Assembly: GCA_025055235.1 (NCBI GenBank)
Contig: JANWYN010000040.1
Span: 1 to 64,000, forward strand
From: Candidatus Roseilinea sp.
GTDB lineage: Bacteria; Chloroflexota; Anaerolineae; J036; Brachytrichaceae
Length of the DNA: 64,000 nt
Direction of reading: 5' to 3'
Shown: positions 321 through 10,492 of the stretch, piece after piece
Layout: each line of letters begins with the position of its first letter
Numbering within the stretch: position 1 is the first letter of the stretch
The notes under the pieces: generated by a model
The model's input: the letters and a program-made list of their open reading frames with translations, nothing else
Told to the model about the DNA's origin: nothing
The model's database searches: none
Made by a program: the position numbers and the translations under genes

Positions 321-943
321 TGGCCGAAATGTTACCTTAACGGTTTGGCGCTGAGTTCACGCCTGGGCTCTCCCGCAGCTACATCCGCGCAGCGCGGTGA
401 TGGGTTGTGGTGTGACGAAGAAGATGCGAGCGAGGGGTGAGTAGGATGTCTAAATTTGTGCTGCTCGAGGATGTGCGGCTCGCTCTCACAAAATCGTGTG
501 TGTTGCAGACGACACATCTATCGCGCGACTGACAAGATAGGGAATGCGCGCAGGGCTTCGTCGCGGGTGAGCATCGCGCTCCTTTGCCAAATGAGTGAGC
601 CAGGCGATGACTTCGGATTCCTCCATCCCTGTGGGATGGCGTTTGTGGTGAAAGAGGATGAAGCGGGTGAATCACTAGACGTAAGACTTGTCCGTGCTGT
701 AAGCATCATGGAGGTGGCGCATCGCATCGCAGAGCTGACCAAGTAAGCGAGGTGGCTTCGGAGTATTCGGCGTGGCTTGTTTTGTCTCCGCAGGGCTTTC
801 AATGGTGCTGATTGTCAGTTGTTTGCACGAATTTGCAAGATAAGCCGCAGGATTACACAGAGCCAAGGCTTTTTGACAAATGTGAGGTTATCCCGCAGAA
901 TTGCAGCAGAATACTAAGTCGGGCGGCACATTTCACCACCATA
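321..943. other. Gene-poor gap with possible gene remnant
   Basis: About 620 bases between the leftward membrane protein and the rightward methylase. The only protein-like stretch is 591-746 on the plus strand: 51 residues with 'DDFGFLHPCGMAFVV' and 'LDVRLVRAVSIMEVAH', acidic then amphipathic helical in character. It could be the tail of a decayed gene, but no family is recognised. On the minus strand, an ATG near 570 preceded by a good AGGAG gives only 18 codons before a stop. Base composition becomes AT-rich from about 790 onward, marking the left edge of the accessory island. No convincing attC, attI or tRNA edge was found here. Confidence 0.35.
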
Positions 944-1777
944 ATGACGTTAAATCAAAAGCTCTTGATACGTTATCCCGGCGGGAAGCGCCGCTTACTA
1001 GTTTTTTTACAGCATCGTCTTCCTATCGTTAATAATATTGATGGGAGATATGTAGAACCGTTTGTCGGAAGTGGGGCTGTTTTTTTCTATCTGCAACCCA
1101 CAAGAGCAATACTTTCAGATGTAAACCCAGAGTTAATAGACCTATACCGAGCCATAAGGTATGCTCCAAGAAAAGTTTGGGCAACTTATTGCGGGTTTGG
1201 GAATACGAAATCCGATTATCATTACATTCGAGATGAATATGAGCCTAAGACGCTTATTGAGAGAGCCTCCAGAACACTATATCTCAATCGTACATGCTTC
1301 AAGGGAATGTGGCGTCATAATCGGGAGGGACGTTTCAATGTGGGATACGGTGGACAGGAGCGACGATGGGTAATTACCGAAGAAGATCTTGTTTTTTGTG
1401 CTTCCGTATTACGCAGAGTATCTCTGAGATGTGAAGACTTTCAGCCCATCATTGATCAAACGCAAAAAGGCGATTTCATTTTCCTTGACCCTCCTTACCG
1501 TCCCGGCCACAAAGAATGTTCAAACAGCCATTACGTTTGGCACCAATTTAGATACAGTGATTACGAAAGACTCGCGAATTCCCTTCAATGTGCAAAATCG
1601 CGGGGTGTTAGATGGGCAATGACCATTTCATCTCATGAAGACATATTACAGCTGCTTAAAGGAAGCTATGTATTAAGAATTCCCCGCGGAACAGGCAAGA
1701 TGCCTGGCATTATTACATCTGATTCTGGAGAAGTGCTTGTCACATCCTACTCGATCGAAGGTGGAAAGAGAATATGA
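944..1777 (+). CDS. Dam-type adenine-N6 DNA methyltransferase (D12 class)
   Basis: Predicted S-adenosylmethionine-dependent adenine-N6 methylase of 277 residues. Motifs in order: 'YPGGK' (11-15), the SAM-binding block 'EPFVGSG' (38-44), 'DVNPEL' (59-64), 'LNRTCFKG' (114-121) and the catalytic 'DPPY' (182-185). This order and the length are those of the Dam/D12 family. An upstream in-frame ATG exists at 812, but the extra 44 residues do not resemble a methylase N-terminus, so the start at 944 just before 'LIRYPGGK' is preferred. The stop codon overlaps the ATG of the next gene, so translation is probably coupled. DNA is strikingly AT-rich with A and T runs unlike the flanking chromosome, indicating horizontal acquisition. 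Likely role: self-protection by methylation within the operon. Target sequence unknown. Confidence 0.9.
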   Translation: MTLNQKLLIRYPGGKRRLLVFLQHRLPIVNNIDGRYVEPFVGSGAVFFYLQPTRAILSDVNPELIDLYRAIRYAPRKVWATYCGFGNTKSDYHYIRDEYEPKTLIERASRTLYLNRTCFKGMWRHNREGRFNVGYGGQERRWVITEEDLVFCASVLRRVSLRCEDFQPIIDQTQKGDFIFLDPPYRPGHKECSNSHYVWHQFRYSDYERLANSLQCAKSRGVRWAMTISSHEDILQLLKGSYVLRIPRGTGKMPGIITSDSGEVLVTSYSIEGGKRI

Positions 1778-3780
1778 AAGACTTTTTCAATAGCGCGGCT
1801 CAACAGCGTCATCCTTTACGAGTTCTCAAGGACTTTCTTGACAGAGAACAAGCTAATGAGCTTGCCAAGAAATACGATGAGATGCGATTTGTGGGCTATG
1901 TTCTCGATATAAACTATAACACTGTCACGATAATTACCTCCGACCCTTATAAAGTTGCAGTTGGTGGTATACCGCGCAATTCGTTGCTAATAATGACGCC
2001 TGCGAAACAAGAGAGAATAGCCACTCCCCACTTCACGCTCCTGCGTGTTCTGGACGCGGCTCCTACGCCATTGAGTAAGGAGACACAGCAGACATATTTT
2101 GAGCTACAAAAAAAGTCAATGCCAGAGCTCGACATTTTCACGCAGTCCGAGCTACAGTGGGGAGCATTAAATACGGAAGTGCTTGGAATGTTCTATCCCC
2201 ATCCTGAGAAACAAGATGCAGTAGAGTTCTCGGGGGACATGAACAATTTTGTCAGTGCTCACAAGTATCGCGTCTACGCTCCTGATGCTGCTATCTTGGA
2301 CCTAGTGATAAATTCACTTGTCTCGCAAGACAAGAGATTCAAGATAGGCGCTTTGCGACTGACAGAATGTCGGCTACCGTTGCCAGACAAACCGCTTTTG
2401 CAAGTTCCAGTTTACGTATCCCCAAGGGATTTTCTTGCATCTCGAACAGCGATGTTTGGGAAAACTCGTCTTGGTAAATCCAACGTCGTGAAACTTATCG
2501 CCCAGAGTATTCTTGATGCTACTGTGCAAGACAGCAATGTAGGGCAACTGATTTTTGACATCAATGGTGAATATGCAAACGATAACTCGCAGGACGGCAG
2601 CAAATCTCTGAGAAGCGCCAATCCTGATCGTTGTGTTGTTTATGCACTGACCCCTAAACCCGCTACTCCTTCTCGGCCCTTGAAACTGAATTTTTACGAA
2701 CAGCCTGACACGGCGCAGAATATCTTGGCGAGCCTAATTACTCAAGATAATCGCGCCACATCGGATTATATTCGCCGCTTCATGAGCGTTGAGCTTTTGT
2801 CATTGGAAGAAATCAAAAAAATGAATGCGGGAAGTGAGAAAACGCGAATTTACCGCAAAATACAAATGTTTTGGGCCATACTCCAAAAGGCTGGCTTTCA
2901 GGCGGACGAAAAACGGCTAATAGCCACAGCACCATCAGGTCAACCTCCAAGCGGATTTAATCCTGGTTTCAGGCAAGAGTTGCGAAGTGCAGCATATTCT
3001 GCTACTGGAGTTCAGACTGTGCCACAGCCGCCTCGAACATTAGACGATCTTATGCGTGAGATGGAGATTATAGCCAGGTTTCGACGGGACAATCCGAGTA
3101 ATCCAAGCTTGACCAGCCAGAGTGGCAATGCGCTTTTTGATCCAGATGACATCGCGCTACTAGAGTTTCTTGAGCCGCCTCCTGGCCGAAGTGGCCCAGC
3201 AATAATCCAACCATACCGCATTTATCATCATCCTCAAGCAAGCGATTTCGTAAAAGAGATCCTGAAGCTCTTGGATGATGGCAAGACTGTCATACTCGAC
3301 TTGGGTAATGCTCATCCTGTGCTTTTGGAATACTTCTCAGATTTGTTATCCAAAGCCGTTTTCAGTCACCAAGTTGACAAGTTTAGCAATGACAAGTTGG
3401 GAGATAAATACATTCAACTGTACTTTGAAGAAGCTCATAACCTCTTTCCACGCCAGAAAGAGCCAAAGGACATCTATAGCCGCTTTGCAAAGGAAGGAGC
3501 AAAGTACCATATAGGGATTGTCTATTCAACACAATCCCCGTCCACAATAAGTGGCGATCTTTTGGCTCAAACTGAGAATTTCTTTGTTGCTCATATGTCA
3601 TCGCAAGATGAAGTGAACGTGCTGGCGAAAATGAACGTGGCTTATGAAAGCATGAAGGATGACATATTGCGTGCAAAAACGCCAGGATATATTCGAATGC
3701 TAACCCGTTCGCACAGATTTGTTGTACCGATACAAGCGCTGAAATTTGAGCCGAATGCCAGTCAACCATCACTATTGTGA
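1774..3780 (+). CDS. HerA-type hexameric DNA translocase ATPase
   Basis: A 668-residue ATPase of the HerA/FtsK superfamily. The N-terminal ~200 residues are beta-rich, like the HerA-ATP-synthase barrel. Walker A is 'GKTRLGKS' (229-236), followed by 'NVVKLIAQSI'. A strand ending in 'VILDLGNAH' lies around 506-514. Walker B is 'LYFEEAHNLFP' (around 549-559), with Glu where Asp is more common. 'YSTQSP' (584-589) plus 'TENFFVAHM' match the HerA sensor/arginine-finger region. HerA proteins form hexameric rings that pump DNA and work with NurA nucleases. The ATG overlaps the methylase stop (ATGA), and nine bases separate its stop from the NurA-like gene, so the three form one operon. The AT-rich composition matches its neighbours. 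It has the size of a full-length HerA and no visible damage. Confidence 0.85.
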   Translation: MKDFFNSAAQQRHPLRVLKDFLDREQANELAKKYDEMRFVGYVLDINYNTVTIITSDPYKVAVGGIPRNSLLIMTPAKQERIATPHFTLLRVLDAAPTPLSKETQQTYFELQKKSMPELDIFTQSELQWGALNTEVLGMFYPHPEKQDAVEFSGDMNNFVSAHKYRVYAPDAAILDLVINSLVSQDKRFKIGALRLTECRLPLPDKPLLQVPVYVSPRDFLASRTAMFGKTRLGKSNVVKLIAQSILDATVQDSNVGQLIFDINGEYANDNSQDGSKSLRSANPDRCVVYALTPKPATPSRPLKLNFYEQPDTAQNILASLITQDNRATSDYIRRFMSVELLSLEEIKKMNAGSEKTRIYRKIQMFWAILQKAGFQADEKRLIATAPSGQPPSGFNPGFRQELRSAAYSATGVQTVPQPPRTLDDLMREMEIIARFRRDNPSNPSLTSQSGNALFDPDDIALLEFLEPPPGRSGPAIIQPYRIYHHPQASDFVKEILKLLDDGKTVILDLGNAHPVLLEYFSDLLSKAVFSHQVDKFSNDKLGDKYIQLYFEEAHNLFPRQKEPKDIYSRFAKEGAKYHIGIVYSTQSPSTISGDLLAQTENFFVAHMSSQDEVNVLAKMNVAYESMKDDILRAKTPGYIRMLTRSHRFVVPIQALKFEPNASQPSLL

Positions 3781-3789
3781 GTCAAATAT

Positions 3790-5130
3790 ATGCCATATCA
3801 AGCAGGAAGAAATCTGCCAGGTGAACATGCCAGTAAGCTTGGGCATTTAGAAGTACTTAAGAGTCCACTAGTCCAACAAATTGTTGATAATTTTGAGCAG
3901 CCTGAAGCGGTAGAAACCTCCACTAATATCAAGTGGGAGCCCTTCCCGCATCTTGGCGAACCTCTTGATTTAGTCTTTGCTGTTGACGGTTCGTGGCAAC
4001 CCGTGACAGATGAACGTCCACCGCACAAAAGTATCGCGTTTATCAAGACAGCCTTGATGAAGGTAGATCAAATTGCCTTAAGCCGAATTGATAAAGATGA
4101 ACCGCATCCTTTGGCGCTACGAGACTTGATGGCTGAAGCCGCCTTATATCATGCAACCGCTTTTCCCTTAAAACACGTCTATTCTAAAGGACTCAGTGTC
4201 TACGATGCAATTCGCCAGATTATTTTCGAGTCACTTAAGGACGCTTCTCTTAACGGGGAAGTGATGGAAACATTTAAGTGGCTTGCTTATGAAAAGTGGT
4301 CTAGCTCACCCCGTTCCTCATTACCCCCTTTCCAATGTCCGCACAGTGAAATTGATGGTGTGGCACATGATGCGACTCTGAGTTTTGATGCGGAAGAAGG
4401 AAAATGTGCGACTTGCGGCAAGAAGATTTTTATCACTGACATGCTCGGTTTTCATTTGGAAATGAGCGAAAATGCCGCATCAGAAAGTGTCGCTACGGCG
4501 TACATGAATATTCATGAGACCTTGCTGTTATTCACAGGTGTTCGCTACTTCTGGGAATCTAGTCGTGAAACGCTCAAACGCAGTTTGTTTCTGAAAGATG
4601 GTCCCTTGCAGATTCGCGCTCAATATTCGAAATTGGTCAACCCTATTAGAAATTTCTTGTTGCATGCTTATTCGCAAGGATATCCTATTAGCATAGTGGG
4701 CCAAGAAAAGACGGGCATCTTTGTTGATCACTTAAATTTATTGCTGGGTAAGAATGTACCATCCAATCACTTTTTTATCCCTGACCACATTTATATTTGT
4801 GAACAGATTCAGAGCAGACCTTCCAGTGGTGCTCCCTACGGAAGAGATACAAACTATGGGGCAAAAGTCTTTATAGTAATGAACGAACGCTGCCGCCTAG
4901 TATTGAACATACCTATTTCCGTTAGAATGAGTGAGTTCATTTACAGTCCTGACTCTTCTAAGCTTATCAATCTCGACAGGATACTGGCTACCCTTCCAGG
5001 GATAATAAGCAGCAGGCACGAAAATGCACTGATCCCGATAGAGATGGCAAACTCCATAGCATCTTTGTCAACATATCCTTCAGCTCAAGTTTTGAAGCTT
5101 TTTGCTGAAGCTATTATCAAACACAAATAG
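3790..5130 (+). CDS. NurA-domain nuclease with zinc-ribbon insert
   Basis: A 446-residue protein recognised as NurA-like by 'FAVDGSWQ' around residues 63-70: the 'DGS' triad supplies a metal-binding Asp (D66) in this RNase H-fold nuclease family. A second conserved-looking block, 'LFLKDGPLQIRAQYS' (266-280), offers another acidic ligand (D270). Between them lies a probable zinc ribbon: C183-P-H185, then C206-A-T-C209. Compared with short archaeal NurA, this protein is long because of the insert. HerA-NurA pairs resect DNA ends in archaea. In bacteria, such pairs beside a methylase suggest restriction of unmethylated foreign DNA; that role is inferred. The gene ends two bases before an attC-like element. 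No signal peptide or membrane segment. Confidence 0.72.
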   Translation: MPYQAGRNLPGEHASKLGHLEVLKSPLVQQIVDNFEQPEAVETSTNIKWEPFPHLGEPLDLVFAVDGSWQPVTDERPPHKSIAFIKTALMKVDQIALSRIDKDEPHPLALRDLMAEAALYHATAFPLKHVYSKGLSVYDAIRQIIFESLKDASLNGEVMETFKWLAYEKWSSSPRSSLPPFQCPHSEIDGVAHDATLSFDAEEGKCATCGKKIFITDMLGFHLEMSENAASESVATAYMNIHETLLLFTGVRYFWESSRETLKRSLFLKDGPLQIRAQYSKLVNPIRNFLLHAYSQGYPISIVGQEKTGIFVDHLNLLLGKNVPSNHFFIPDHIYICEQIQSRPSSGAPYGRDTNYGAKVFIVMNERCRLVLNIPISVRMSEFIYSPDSSKLINLDRILATLPGIISSRHENALIPIEMANSIASLSTYPSAQVLKLFAEAIIKHK

Positions 5131-5132
5131 CT

Positions 5133-5202
5133 GCCCAACAAGTGGTTTCAGCCGACCCACTCCGCTTCGCTACGCGGGCGGCTGAAGCGCAGGCCGTTAG
5201 GC
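5133..5202 (+). repeat. attC-like integron recombination site
   Basis: A 70-bp imperfect palindrome bounded by GCCCAAC (5133-5139, fits RYYYAAC) and GTTAGGC (5196-5202, fits GTTRRRY). The inner arms TTCAGCCG (5147-5154) and CGGCTGAA (5179-5186) are perfectly complementary, and the apex is rich in CGCTTCGC, as in many chromosomal-integron attC sites. It starts two bases after the NurA-like stop codon, and the next ATG (5207) lies four bases after the GTTAGGC box. That is the spacing expected of consecutive gene cassettes. No integron integrase gene is in the window. Confidence 0.82.
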
Positions 5203-5940: not shown

Positions 5941-6465
5941 ATGAACCGGAGAATCCCTAAATTAACCGTTGCCTCCTTCCAACCGGGCGAACAGGTGATC
6001 TGGTGGAAACGCATCCCGGGCGGCGACTACGTTTATCCCGTGCCGGCGGTCGTGATCGGTGCGACGGCAAAGCGTATCAAGATTCAGGCAGACGACGATG
6101 GACAAGCCGTCATCCGCTACGTGCCCCCGGAGAGCCTCCAGAAGCGGCCTGCAACCTATGAAGCGCAGACGCAGGAATACGTCTTGGAATTGCTTCGCCA
6201 GGAGCGCTCCTATCTCACTGCCGAGTACGGCGTCAAACGCATTGGAGTCTTCGGCTCGTATGCCAAAGGCTCGGCGAACGAGACGAGCGATGTGGACATC
6301 ATCGTGGAGTTCGAACGTCCCCTGGGGTTCAAGTTCATCGAGTTCGCTGAGCATCTCGAACGCCTGCTCGGCAGAAAGGTGGATGTGTTGACCCCCGCCG
6401 GGCTTCGAGGAATCAGAATCCCTCACATCGCACGAGACATTGCGGAGAGCATCGTGTATGTCTGA
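5941..6465 (+). CDS. mntA: MntA-type nucleotidyltransferase antitoxin with fused N-terminal SH3-like domain
   Basis: 174 residues in two parts. Residues 1-72 form a small beta-rich module ('FQPGEQVIWWKRIPGG', 'AKRIKIQADDDG', 'IRYVPPESLQ') that resembles SH3-like domains and probably derives from a separate small protein. Residues 75-174 are a minimal nucleotidyltransferase with the family motif 'GSYAKGSANETSDVD' (around 104-118) and a following 'IIVEF'. MntA antitoxins neutralise HepT RNase toxins by AMPylating a Tyr near the HepT active site. The gene overlaps the ATG of the downstream hepT-like frame, the usual order. The fused N-terminal domain is unusual. It sits at the right end of the accessory island, back in GC-rich DNA. 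Confidence 0.85.
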   Translation: MNRRIPKLTVASFQPGEQVIWWKRIPGGDYVYPVPAVVIGATAKRIKIQADDDGQAVIRYVPPESLQKRPATYEAQTQEYVLELLRQERSYLTAEYGVKRIGVFGSYAKGSANETSDVDIIVEFERPLGFKFIEFAEHLERLLGRKVDVLTPAGLRGIRIPHIARDIAESIVYV

Positions 6466-6798
6466 GCGGACAGACAGGGACTTCCTGAGCGACATTCAAG
6501 AAGCGATCCGTCGCATGGCGGAATACACAACAGGCGGGTCTTCTTGGAAGACGCGAAGACGCAGGACGCCGTCATTCGTAACCTTGAGATCATTGGCGAA
6601 GCAACGAAGCACCTGTCGAAGGAATTCAGAGAGCGACACCCCGATATCCCCTGGAAGAGCATGGCTGGCGCGCGAGACCGATTGATACACCACTATTTTG
6701 GCGTCAACCTCGACATCGTATGGCGAATCGTAACGGATGAATTGCTCGAGGTGGCTTCACGACTCACCGAAATTTTGCGCGAAGAAGACAACGCCTGA
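6458..6798 (+). pseudogene. hepT: HepT-type RNase toxin gene, frameshifted
   Basis: Frame one, from the ATG at 6458, reads 'MSERTDRDFLSDIQEAIR' and then 'RMAEYTTGG', a normal HepT N-terminus. Homology then jumps to another frame at 6541: 'FLEDAKTQDAVIRNLEII', then 'GEATKHL', 'RDRLIHHYFGVN' and an end at 6798. Compared with typical HepT proteins, about three residues plus a reading-frame shift are missing around 6536-6540, so a small deletion is likely. The Rx4-6H catalytic motif ('RDRLIHHY') survives in the second half, but no single frame encodes the whole protein. It overlaps mntA by eight bases. The toxin is therefore probably inactive, leaving an orphan antitoxin. A sequencing error would be the alternative. 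Confidence 0.8.
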
Positions 6799-9981: not shown

Positions 9982-10371
9982 TCATGCCAGCGAAACACCC
10001 CTCTCGTTGATCTCCCGGTAGAAAGCGCCGCCGCGAAGGCGCGCTTCGTGTTCTTCTGGAGGTTCAATCAGCAGATCGAACGAGAACAACCTGCCACGCT
10101 TCATCAGCGGCGCCCAACGCATGCGGATCGCTACGGCATCCTCATAAGCGCTCTGGATGATGTCCTTGACGATGAGCAAATCTACGTCGCTGTGTTCGTC
10201 GGGATTGCCATAGGCGTAGGAGCCGAACAAGATCACTTGCCGGGGCGCGAACTCGTCCACGAGCACCTGCAAGTACGGCAACAGGTCGTCGGCGATGCGG
10301 CTGACCGGCCGGGACGGGTCACGCAACGCGGCCAGATTCAACGACTTGCGTTGAGCTTCGAGGACGGTCAT
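9982..10371 (-). CDS. MNT-family nucleotidyltransferase domain protein
   Basis: 129 residues from the ATG 'MTVLEAQRKSLNLA'; an in-frame ATG nine codons upstream is possible. The core motif 'GSYAYGNPDEHSDVDLLIV' carries the G-S and D-x-D signature of minimal nucleotidyltransferases. The C-terminal part has 'FDLLIEPPEEHEARLRGG'. Members act as antitoxins of HepT or HEPN toxins or as stand-alone AMP-transferases. No HepT/HEPN partner is encoded next to it. The gene sits inside a leftward glycosyltransferase operon with which it has no functional link, and it is bracketed by two direct copies of the dispersed palindromic repeat, which suggests it arrived as an insertion. Confidence 0.8.
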   Translation of the reverse strand: MTVLEAQRKSLNLAALRDPSRPVSRIADDLLPYLQVLVDEFAPRQVILFGSYAYGNPDEHSDVDLLIVKDIIQSAYEDAVAIRMRWAPLMKRGRLFSFDLLIEPPEEHEARLRGGAFYREINERGVSLA

Positions 10372-10492
10372 ACGCGGATTATAGCGACCGGCGCGCAAGC
10401 GGGGTATATCGGGTGCTTCGCTAGCGGGGGCGGTAGGGCGCGCTCTGAATGGCCCGCATGAGCTGCCGCAGCGCGCCGTTTGCGGCGCACAT

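Follow-up and report, generated by a model that had tools for sequence, protein, structure and literature searches.

At positions 944–5130 of the window (the whole 64-kb stretch of DNA analysed), we identified three adjacent genes, coding for a Dam-type adenine methylase, a HerA ATPase and a NurA-type nuclease, which probably form a restriction-like defence system, in which adenine methylation would mark self DNA and HerA–NurA would destroy the DNA that is left unmarked. This self-marking defence is favoured by the methylase-first gene order, by the near-obligate pairing of the methylase with HerA–NurA and by the kinship of the latter with TdpA–TdpB, and also by the fact that deeper HerA–NurA relatives sit with methylases or with PvuII-like or Type III restriction–modification (R-M) genes. 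TdpA and TdpB together are the degrading part of TdpABC, a defence system in which DNA is marked by phosphorothioation. If our reading is correct, a common operon (at least 511 HerA relatives), unnamed in the libraries searched, is a defence system, and a shared degrading motor links R-M based on base methylation with the phosphorothioate-based TdpABC.

The operon, its proteins and its genomic setting

The features of the operon and of its immediate surroundings are the following:

570–743, minus strand: decayed N-terminal fragment of an integron-type integrase (TIGR02249, E 3.9e-9), with two internal stops, divergent from the operon
918–924, plus strand: GTCGGGC, probable 5′ cassette boundary (GTTGGGC in L028 and L029, the two nearest relatives)
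944–1777, plus strand: methylase gene (ATG at 944, stop at 1777, 277 aa)
1774–3780, plus strand: HerA gene (ATG at 1774, stop at 3780, 668 aa)
3790–5130, plus strand: nuclease gene (ATG at 3790, stop at 5130, 446 aa)
4336–4416, plus strand: zinc-ribbon insert of the nuclease (from alignment, motif count and profile–profile alignment)
5133–5202, plus strand: attC-like site GCCCAAC...GTTAGGC, directly 3′ of the operon (from a motif scan)

A first-pass annotation of this DNA had described three tightly coupled genes with intact catalytic motifs in an AT-rich island, and all of this was recovered: the methylase/HerA junction is an ATGA overlap and the HerA/nuclease junction a gap of 9 nt (3781–3789), both at the predicted coordinates, the motifs expected of the methylase, HerA and the nuclease are all intact, and the GC fraction of 944–5130 is 0.443, versus 0.640 (sd 0.020, minimum 0.589) in segments of equal length from the rest of the 64 kb, which makes the operon far more AT-rich than its surroundings (44.3% vs 64.0% GC). 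An earlier methylase start, TTG at 812, is possible but has little support, as the homology of the relatives begins only at 943/944.

The first gene encodes a D12/Dam-family adenine methyltransferase (Pfam PF02086, 5.5e-38; TIGR00571 dam, 1.2e-54, above its cut-off), in which the FxGxG plus DPPY arrangement of D12 enzymes is represented by the SAM motif FVGSGAVF (1061–1084) and the catalytic DPPY (1487–1498). Its closest solved structure is that of the DpnII methylase (2dpm, 4.1e-32), and it is predicted to methylate adenine in host DNA. GATC should not be assumed as its target, since its recognition loop (FKGMWRHN..FNVGYGG) is unlike that of Dam and DpnM (NGLxRxN..FNVPxG).

HerA matches Pfam DUF87/HerA (PF01935, 6.2e-13) and belongs to the FtsK–HerA superfamily by its DUF87 domain, its HerA fold and its Walker motifs, namely Walker A GKTRLGKS (2458–2481) and Walker B YFEEAH (E552/E553, from 3427). 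TdpA (8wet) is its top sequence match in the PDB (1.3e-25, the runner-up being at 1.9e-10) and the trio HerA proteins align to Thermus TdpA-like proteins with E 1.8e-38 in profile–profile comparison. The AlphaFold model (pLDDT 85.9) superimposes on TdpA with Z 31.6 (526 residues, 24% identity), whereas the other fold matches reach at most Z 29.8, 467 residues and 20% identity, with Z 28.2 for SsoHerA (4d2i). The protein is thus a putative hexameric DNA translocase ATPase of TdpA-like type.

The nuclease alone (3790–5130) gave no match in Pfam, PADLOC or NCBIfam scans, and its sequence profile returned zinc-ribbon noise and nothing else from the PDB. We placed it in the NurA superfamily because members of its family match Pfam NurA (PF09376; 8 of 14 members, best 1.5e-29, the window copy not among them) and because its AlphaFold model (pLDDT 81.6) matches the folds of TdpB (8wfd_G, Z 20.7, the best match) and, next, of Sulfolobus NurA (SsoNurA, 2ygk, Z 15.4). 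The RNase H-like NurA fold is accompanied by the DGS and DG(P/S) acidic motifs of that superfamily, in the form of VDGS (D66, 3985) and KDGPL (D270, 4597), with D66, E243 and D270 invariant across the family. Profile–profile comparison of this family with Thermus TdpB-like proteins gave E 1.1e-7 over 337 columns, and plasmid relatives carry a NurA annotation. Comparison by profile and fold, chosen beforehand as the one on which the NurA assignment should stand or fall, came out in its favour, and the protein is predicted to be a TdpB-like nuclease. As to the zinc ribbon also attributed to it, the insert is present, but the ribbon is degenerate in the window copy: C183, C206 and C209 are retained, whereas the first knuckle has lost its second Cys (CPHS). 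One zinc-ribbon Cys is also missing in its nearest relatives, and a C4-like motif is present in 66 of the 74 nuclease homologues.

Judging from its flanks, the operon appears to be a 4.3-kb three-gene integron-type cassette beside a dead integrase, which would explain the AT-rich island. DNA homology extends from 943 to 5199/5203 in Meiothermus hypogaeus (L028, 89%) and in a Chloroflexi MAG (L029, 87%). An attC site follows the pattern RYYYAAC...GTTRRRY with an inner stem; the motif scan of the 64 kb gave 5133–5202 plus one long palindrome and nothing else, and the site's own DNA fold is mildly stable at most (z −1.5). The integrase fragment (RFILFHHKRHP...EVIAWLTHLAKE) matches an IntI-like protein in L108; its TIGR02249 match lies below the curated cut-off, and the same model gives sub-cut-off matches in 14 of 14 control genomes. 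Among 69 loci tested, the strict attC pattern was found downstream only in L029, with a near-match (one extra base) in L028. Since the pattern is almost absent elsewhere, the cassette would be a recent local event and not a part of the system. Farther along the window, at 5941–6798 and 9982–10398 (−), an MNT nucleotidyltransferase gene precedes a small HEPN-like ORF, with which it probably forms a toxin–antitoxin pair, and another MNT-like ORF lies near 10 kb.

Recurrence of the trio and its deeper relatives

Scanning genomes with an alignment of HerA, used because the nuclease alignment had no segment of sufficient conservation, gave at least 511 confirmed relatives, of which we examined the best 80 loci, selected by HerA alone and not by their neighbours. 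Methylase, HerA and NurA occur in the same order and on the same strand in 69 of the 80 (69/72 of those uninterrupted by contig ends), with median gaps of 3 and 2 nt, so that recurrence of the trio, on which the first-pass proposal depended, is borne out among the best 80 of at least 511 HerA relatives. In the remaining 11 loci, eight are interrupted by contig ends, one operon is disrupted (L104) and two, from Heimdallarchaeota, have no methylase; where present in these 80 loci, the methylase is always upstream of HerA–NurA. The 69 complete trios (63 bacterial, five archaeal and one unassigned) are spread over no fewer than 18 named phyla.

The three genes also share their history. Mapped onto a tree built from 87 HerA proteins, the type of methylase switches 6 times, compared with a mean of 34.7 after shuffling, and the FNVP methylase type forms one supported clade, while the phyla are scrambled; the tree is a FastTree draft with a long-branch warning among deep relatives, and for this reason deep placements were not used. 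Pairwise distances correlate between HerA and NurA (r 0.89) and between HerA and the methylase (r 0.73). Among the matches listed, the closest HerA proteins are those of a Chloroflexi MAG and of Meiothermus (96% identical each), followed by Gloeomargarita (90%). On sequence evidence, the methylase–HerA–NurA unit is one that moves across phyla as a whole. Its distribution is patchy: in the window's phylum, relatives of the family were found in 10 of 400 genomes, and each of the nine other than the window's own has a methylase nearby (several genes off in L023), the plasmid and phage collections gave only distant relatives, and a DNA-level search with a Pseudomonas HerA gene gave zero matches in E. 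coli genomes.

Outside the clade of the D12 trio, HerA–NurA pairs adjoin N6_N4 methylases (L011, L012, L018, L019, L020, L024 and L025) or other D12 methylases (L016, L021 and L022). HerA–NurA without an adjacent methylase was found in two archaeal loci (L083 and L100) and in the cyanobacterial plasmids L013–L015, where a small helix-turn-helix gene lies near HerA–NurA and a methylase is absent nearby. A search of Thermaceae with the family profile retrieved three kinds of locus: the trio itself, TdpA-like genes, and a single HerA adjoining an N6_N4 methylase.

Some of these neighbourhoods deserve mention in their own right. In L018 (4928–10516), a PvuII-type restriction endonuclease fused to a helix-turn-helix domain and a divergent N6_N4 methylase lie beside HerA–NurA, and in L023 (7027–18786) HerA–NurA is followed by a UvrD helicase, a PD-(D/E)XK nuclease and Type III Mod and Res, an arrangement that is possibly a composite defence operon. 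L016 (1309–5751), a Vibrio phage-type element, has a HerA gene split between two frames, together with NurA and a D12 methylase, adjoining its integrase. In Halomonas stenophila (L057, 5664–12301), two extra genes, one of them DndB-like (PF14072), are inserted between the methylase and HerA.

Proposed function and alternative explanations

In the mechanism that we propose, the methylase would put a mark on adenine in host DNA wherever its recognition site occurs. HerA, as a hexameric ring, would load onto double-stranded DNA and pump it into an attached NurA dimer, which would degrade the DNA fed to it. The mark would block loading, translocation or cutting, so that host DNA is spared, and unmarked incoming phage or plasmid DNA would be consumed. 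The ring, the pumping, the nuclease activity and the formation of a complex are predicted by homology, and the protection of self DNA by the mark is suggested by analogy with TdpABC. Phosphorothioate lies on the backbone, which is gripped by the ring motor, while m6A lies in the major groove, and for this reason sensing by TdpAB is not simply transferable to the trio. A backbone sulfur can come into direct contact with the ring motor, but a methyl in the major groove may require a separate reader. The question is then whether a base methyl stalls a ring translocase as a backbone sulfur might, or whether the mark is read elsewhere; candidate readers of m6A may be the methylase subunit itself, the zinc-ribbon insert of the nuclease and the part of HerA in which it exceeds TdpA in length.

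Some observations limit this reading. HerA–NurA would not always be dangerous to an unmarked host, as the archaeal loci and the cyanobacterial plasmids mentioned above have no adjacent methylase. The recognition loop of the methylase is conserved across phyla inside each of its two subtypes, which counts against self-marking defence because many R-M specificities vary fast. Known defence genes flanking the trio in 20 isolates amount to a modest load only.

Alternatively, HerA–NurA could be a nuclease of abortive or RecBCD-like type that is triggered by infection or by DNA ends, like SIR2-HerA and DUF4297-HerA; the methylase would then not define the target but regulate expression or give a side benefit. 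The HerA proteins of these two systems are the next structural matches of our model (Z up to 29.8), host and phage DNA are both degraded by DUF4297-HerA (PMC11291478), and archaeal HerA–NurA acts from DNA ends and was suggested to be antiviral (PMC12977600). However, a marker-blind nuclease would not need the DNA-modifying partners of other types that the deeper relatives retain, and the methylase of the trio, missing from so few uninterrupted loci, tracks the HerA tree; we consider a triggered nuclease unlikely. The archaeal and Deinococcus NurA and HerA proteins, whose folds are similar, suggest instead a repair pair for end resection that travels with an orphan Dam-like methylase, but this is extremely improbable in view of the patchy horizontal spread, with phyla scrambled on the tree, the near-obligate methylase, the cassette-like mobility and the better match to TdpA/TdpB.

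The trio could also be a DNA donation machine, cutting DNA and pushing it to other cells, as does the ICETh1 secretion system of Thermus thermophilus. ICETh1, also mobile and low in GC, combines a NurA-like nuclease, the HerA/FtsK-family ATPase TdtA and an N4/N6 methylase with a Type IIG enzyme (PMC5365140, PMC7767461), and efficient transjugation depends on both TdtA and the NurA-like protein (PMC5365140). That a similar gene set works in DNA donation counts against self-marking defence. The core trio, however, has no site-cutting enzyme and no self-transfer genes; TdtA (568 aa) resembles HepA, a canonical HerA homologue (31% identity, PMC5365140), whereas the HerA of the trio is closest to TdpA, ICETh1 being compared here by its description; and the search of Thermaceae gave only the three kinds of locus listed above. 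A role in donation is, in our view, very unlikely.

Self-marking defence is thus the explanation that we prefer. The recurrence of the trio across phyla, the agreement of methylase subtype with the HerA tree, the Vibrio phage-type element and the Thermus loci with their different marker likewise speak for it. The first-pass proposal that methylation marks self DNA and HerA–NurA degrades the rest is strengthened by the closeness to TdpA–TdpB and weakened by the existence of an ICETh1-like set that can serve donation. Going further, one HerA–NurA-type motor might be combined with interchangeable markers (Dam-like m6A, N4/N6 methylases and phosphorothioation), the mark being read while the DNA is threaded through the ring; this would be a general class of prokaryotic immunity, of which the trio, present in bacteria and archaea, would be the most widespread branch seen so far. 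We hold this wider scheme as tentative, somewhat short of an even chance.

Relation to TdpABC and other known systems

The first-pass annotation named no system of exactly this composition, while allowing that one might exist, and this agrees with what was found in PADLOC and in the literature searched; it had missed the nearest relative, TdpABC, and the integron-cassette setting that would explain the AT-rich island. PADLOC-DB 2.0.0 (2023) has no single system that covers the trio, as the methylase and HerA match generic or partial models and the nuclease matches none, and we found no published name or description of it in the open-access literature on HerA/NurA with methylase or defence.

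Like the Type II R-M systems of the DpnII and Dam family, the trio has a DPPY-bearing D12 adenine methylase adjoining a degrading activity, but a sequence-specific restriction endonuclease is absent: the NurA-type protein is the sole endonuclease, and an ATP-driven ring motor accompanies it instead. SIR2-HerA and DUF4297-HerA likewise place an effector enzyme on the platform of a HerA hexamer ring, but that effector is a NADase or a Cap4-type nuclease and neither system has a DNA-marking enzyme. The archaeal and Deinococcus HerA–NurA pairs (4d2i, 2ygk, 7f6d and 9x1l) are composed of the same two superfamilies working as a complex, but they are usually described for end resection in repair, without a methylase link, and lie farther from the trio than TdpAB does, both by sequence and by fold. 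ICETh1 shares the three kinds of genes in a mobile low-GC operon, and the trio is set apart from it, on the basis of its published description, by lacking a Type IIG gene, by the PF01555-type methylase and canonical HerA-like ATPase of ICETh1, and by the role of the latter in DNA donation.

The closest comparison is with TdpABC (An et al. 2025, Nat Chem Biol 21:1160; solved structures 8wet, 8wfd and 8y1k). TdpAB reportedly degrades DNA that carries no phosphorothioate, while the modified DNA inhibits it. Both systems are compact sets of three genes, in which one DNA-marking enzyme accompanies a degrading pair of HerA/NurA type, and the HerA and nuclease of the trio are closest to TdpA and TdpB by sequence, by profile and by fold. 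In Thermaceae, three of the six loci examined (L126, L128 and L131) have TdpA-like genes together with TdpB-like and PAPS-reductase-family genes, the Thermus TdpB-like proteins beginning with MPY and carrying VDGG and IKDG motifs. By homology, these loci are predicted to be TdpABC, and, as the three kinds of genes occur together there, the same degrading pair seems to be guarded by a different marker in Thermus. In L131 (703–9589), the TdpC–TdpB–TdpA-like genes directly adjoin a Type ISP R-M gene.

The differences are also clear. The marker of the trio is a SAM-dependent D12 adenine methylase and not a sulfur-inserting enzyme, a TdpC-type PAPS reductase being absent from the trio and a PAPS-reductase-like partner being seen only in the Thermus loci; the gene order is methylase–HerA–NurA, versus TdpC–TdpB–TdpA in Thermus; the nuclease has a zinc-ribbon insert, which the TdpB-like proteins do not have; and HerA has 668 aa, versus 586 aa in TdpA. 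Because its marker gene is a D12 methylase, the trio is not a TdpABC system, yet its mechanism is probably TdpABC-like, and this apparently unnamed operon looks like a new combination, in which base methylation serves as the mark with TdpABC-like parts.
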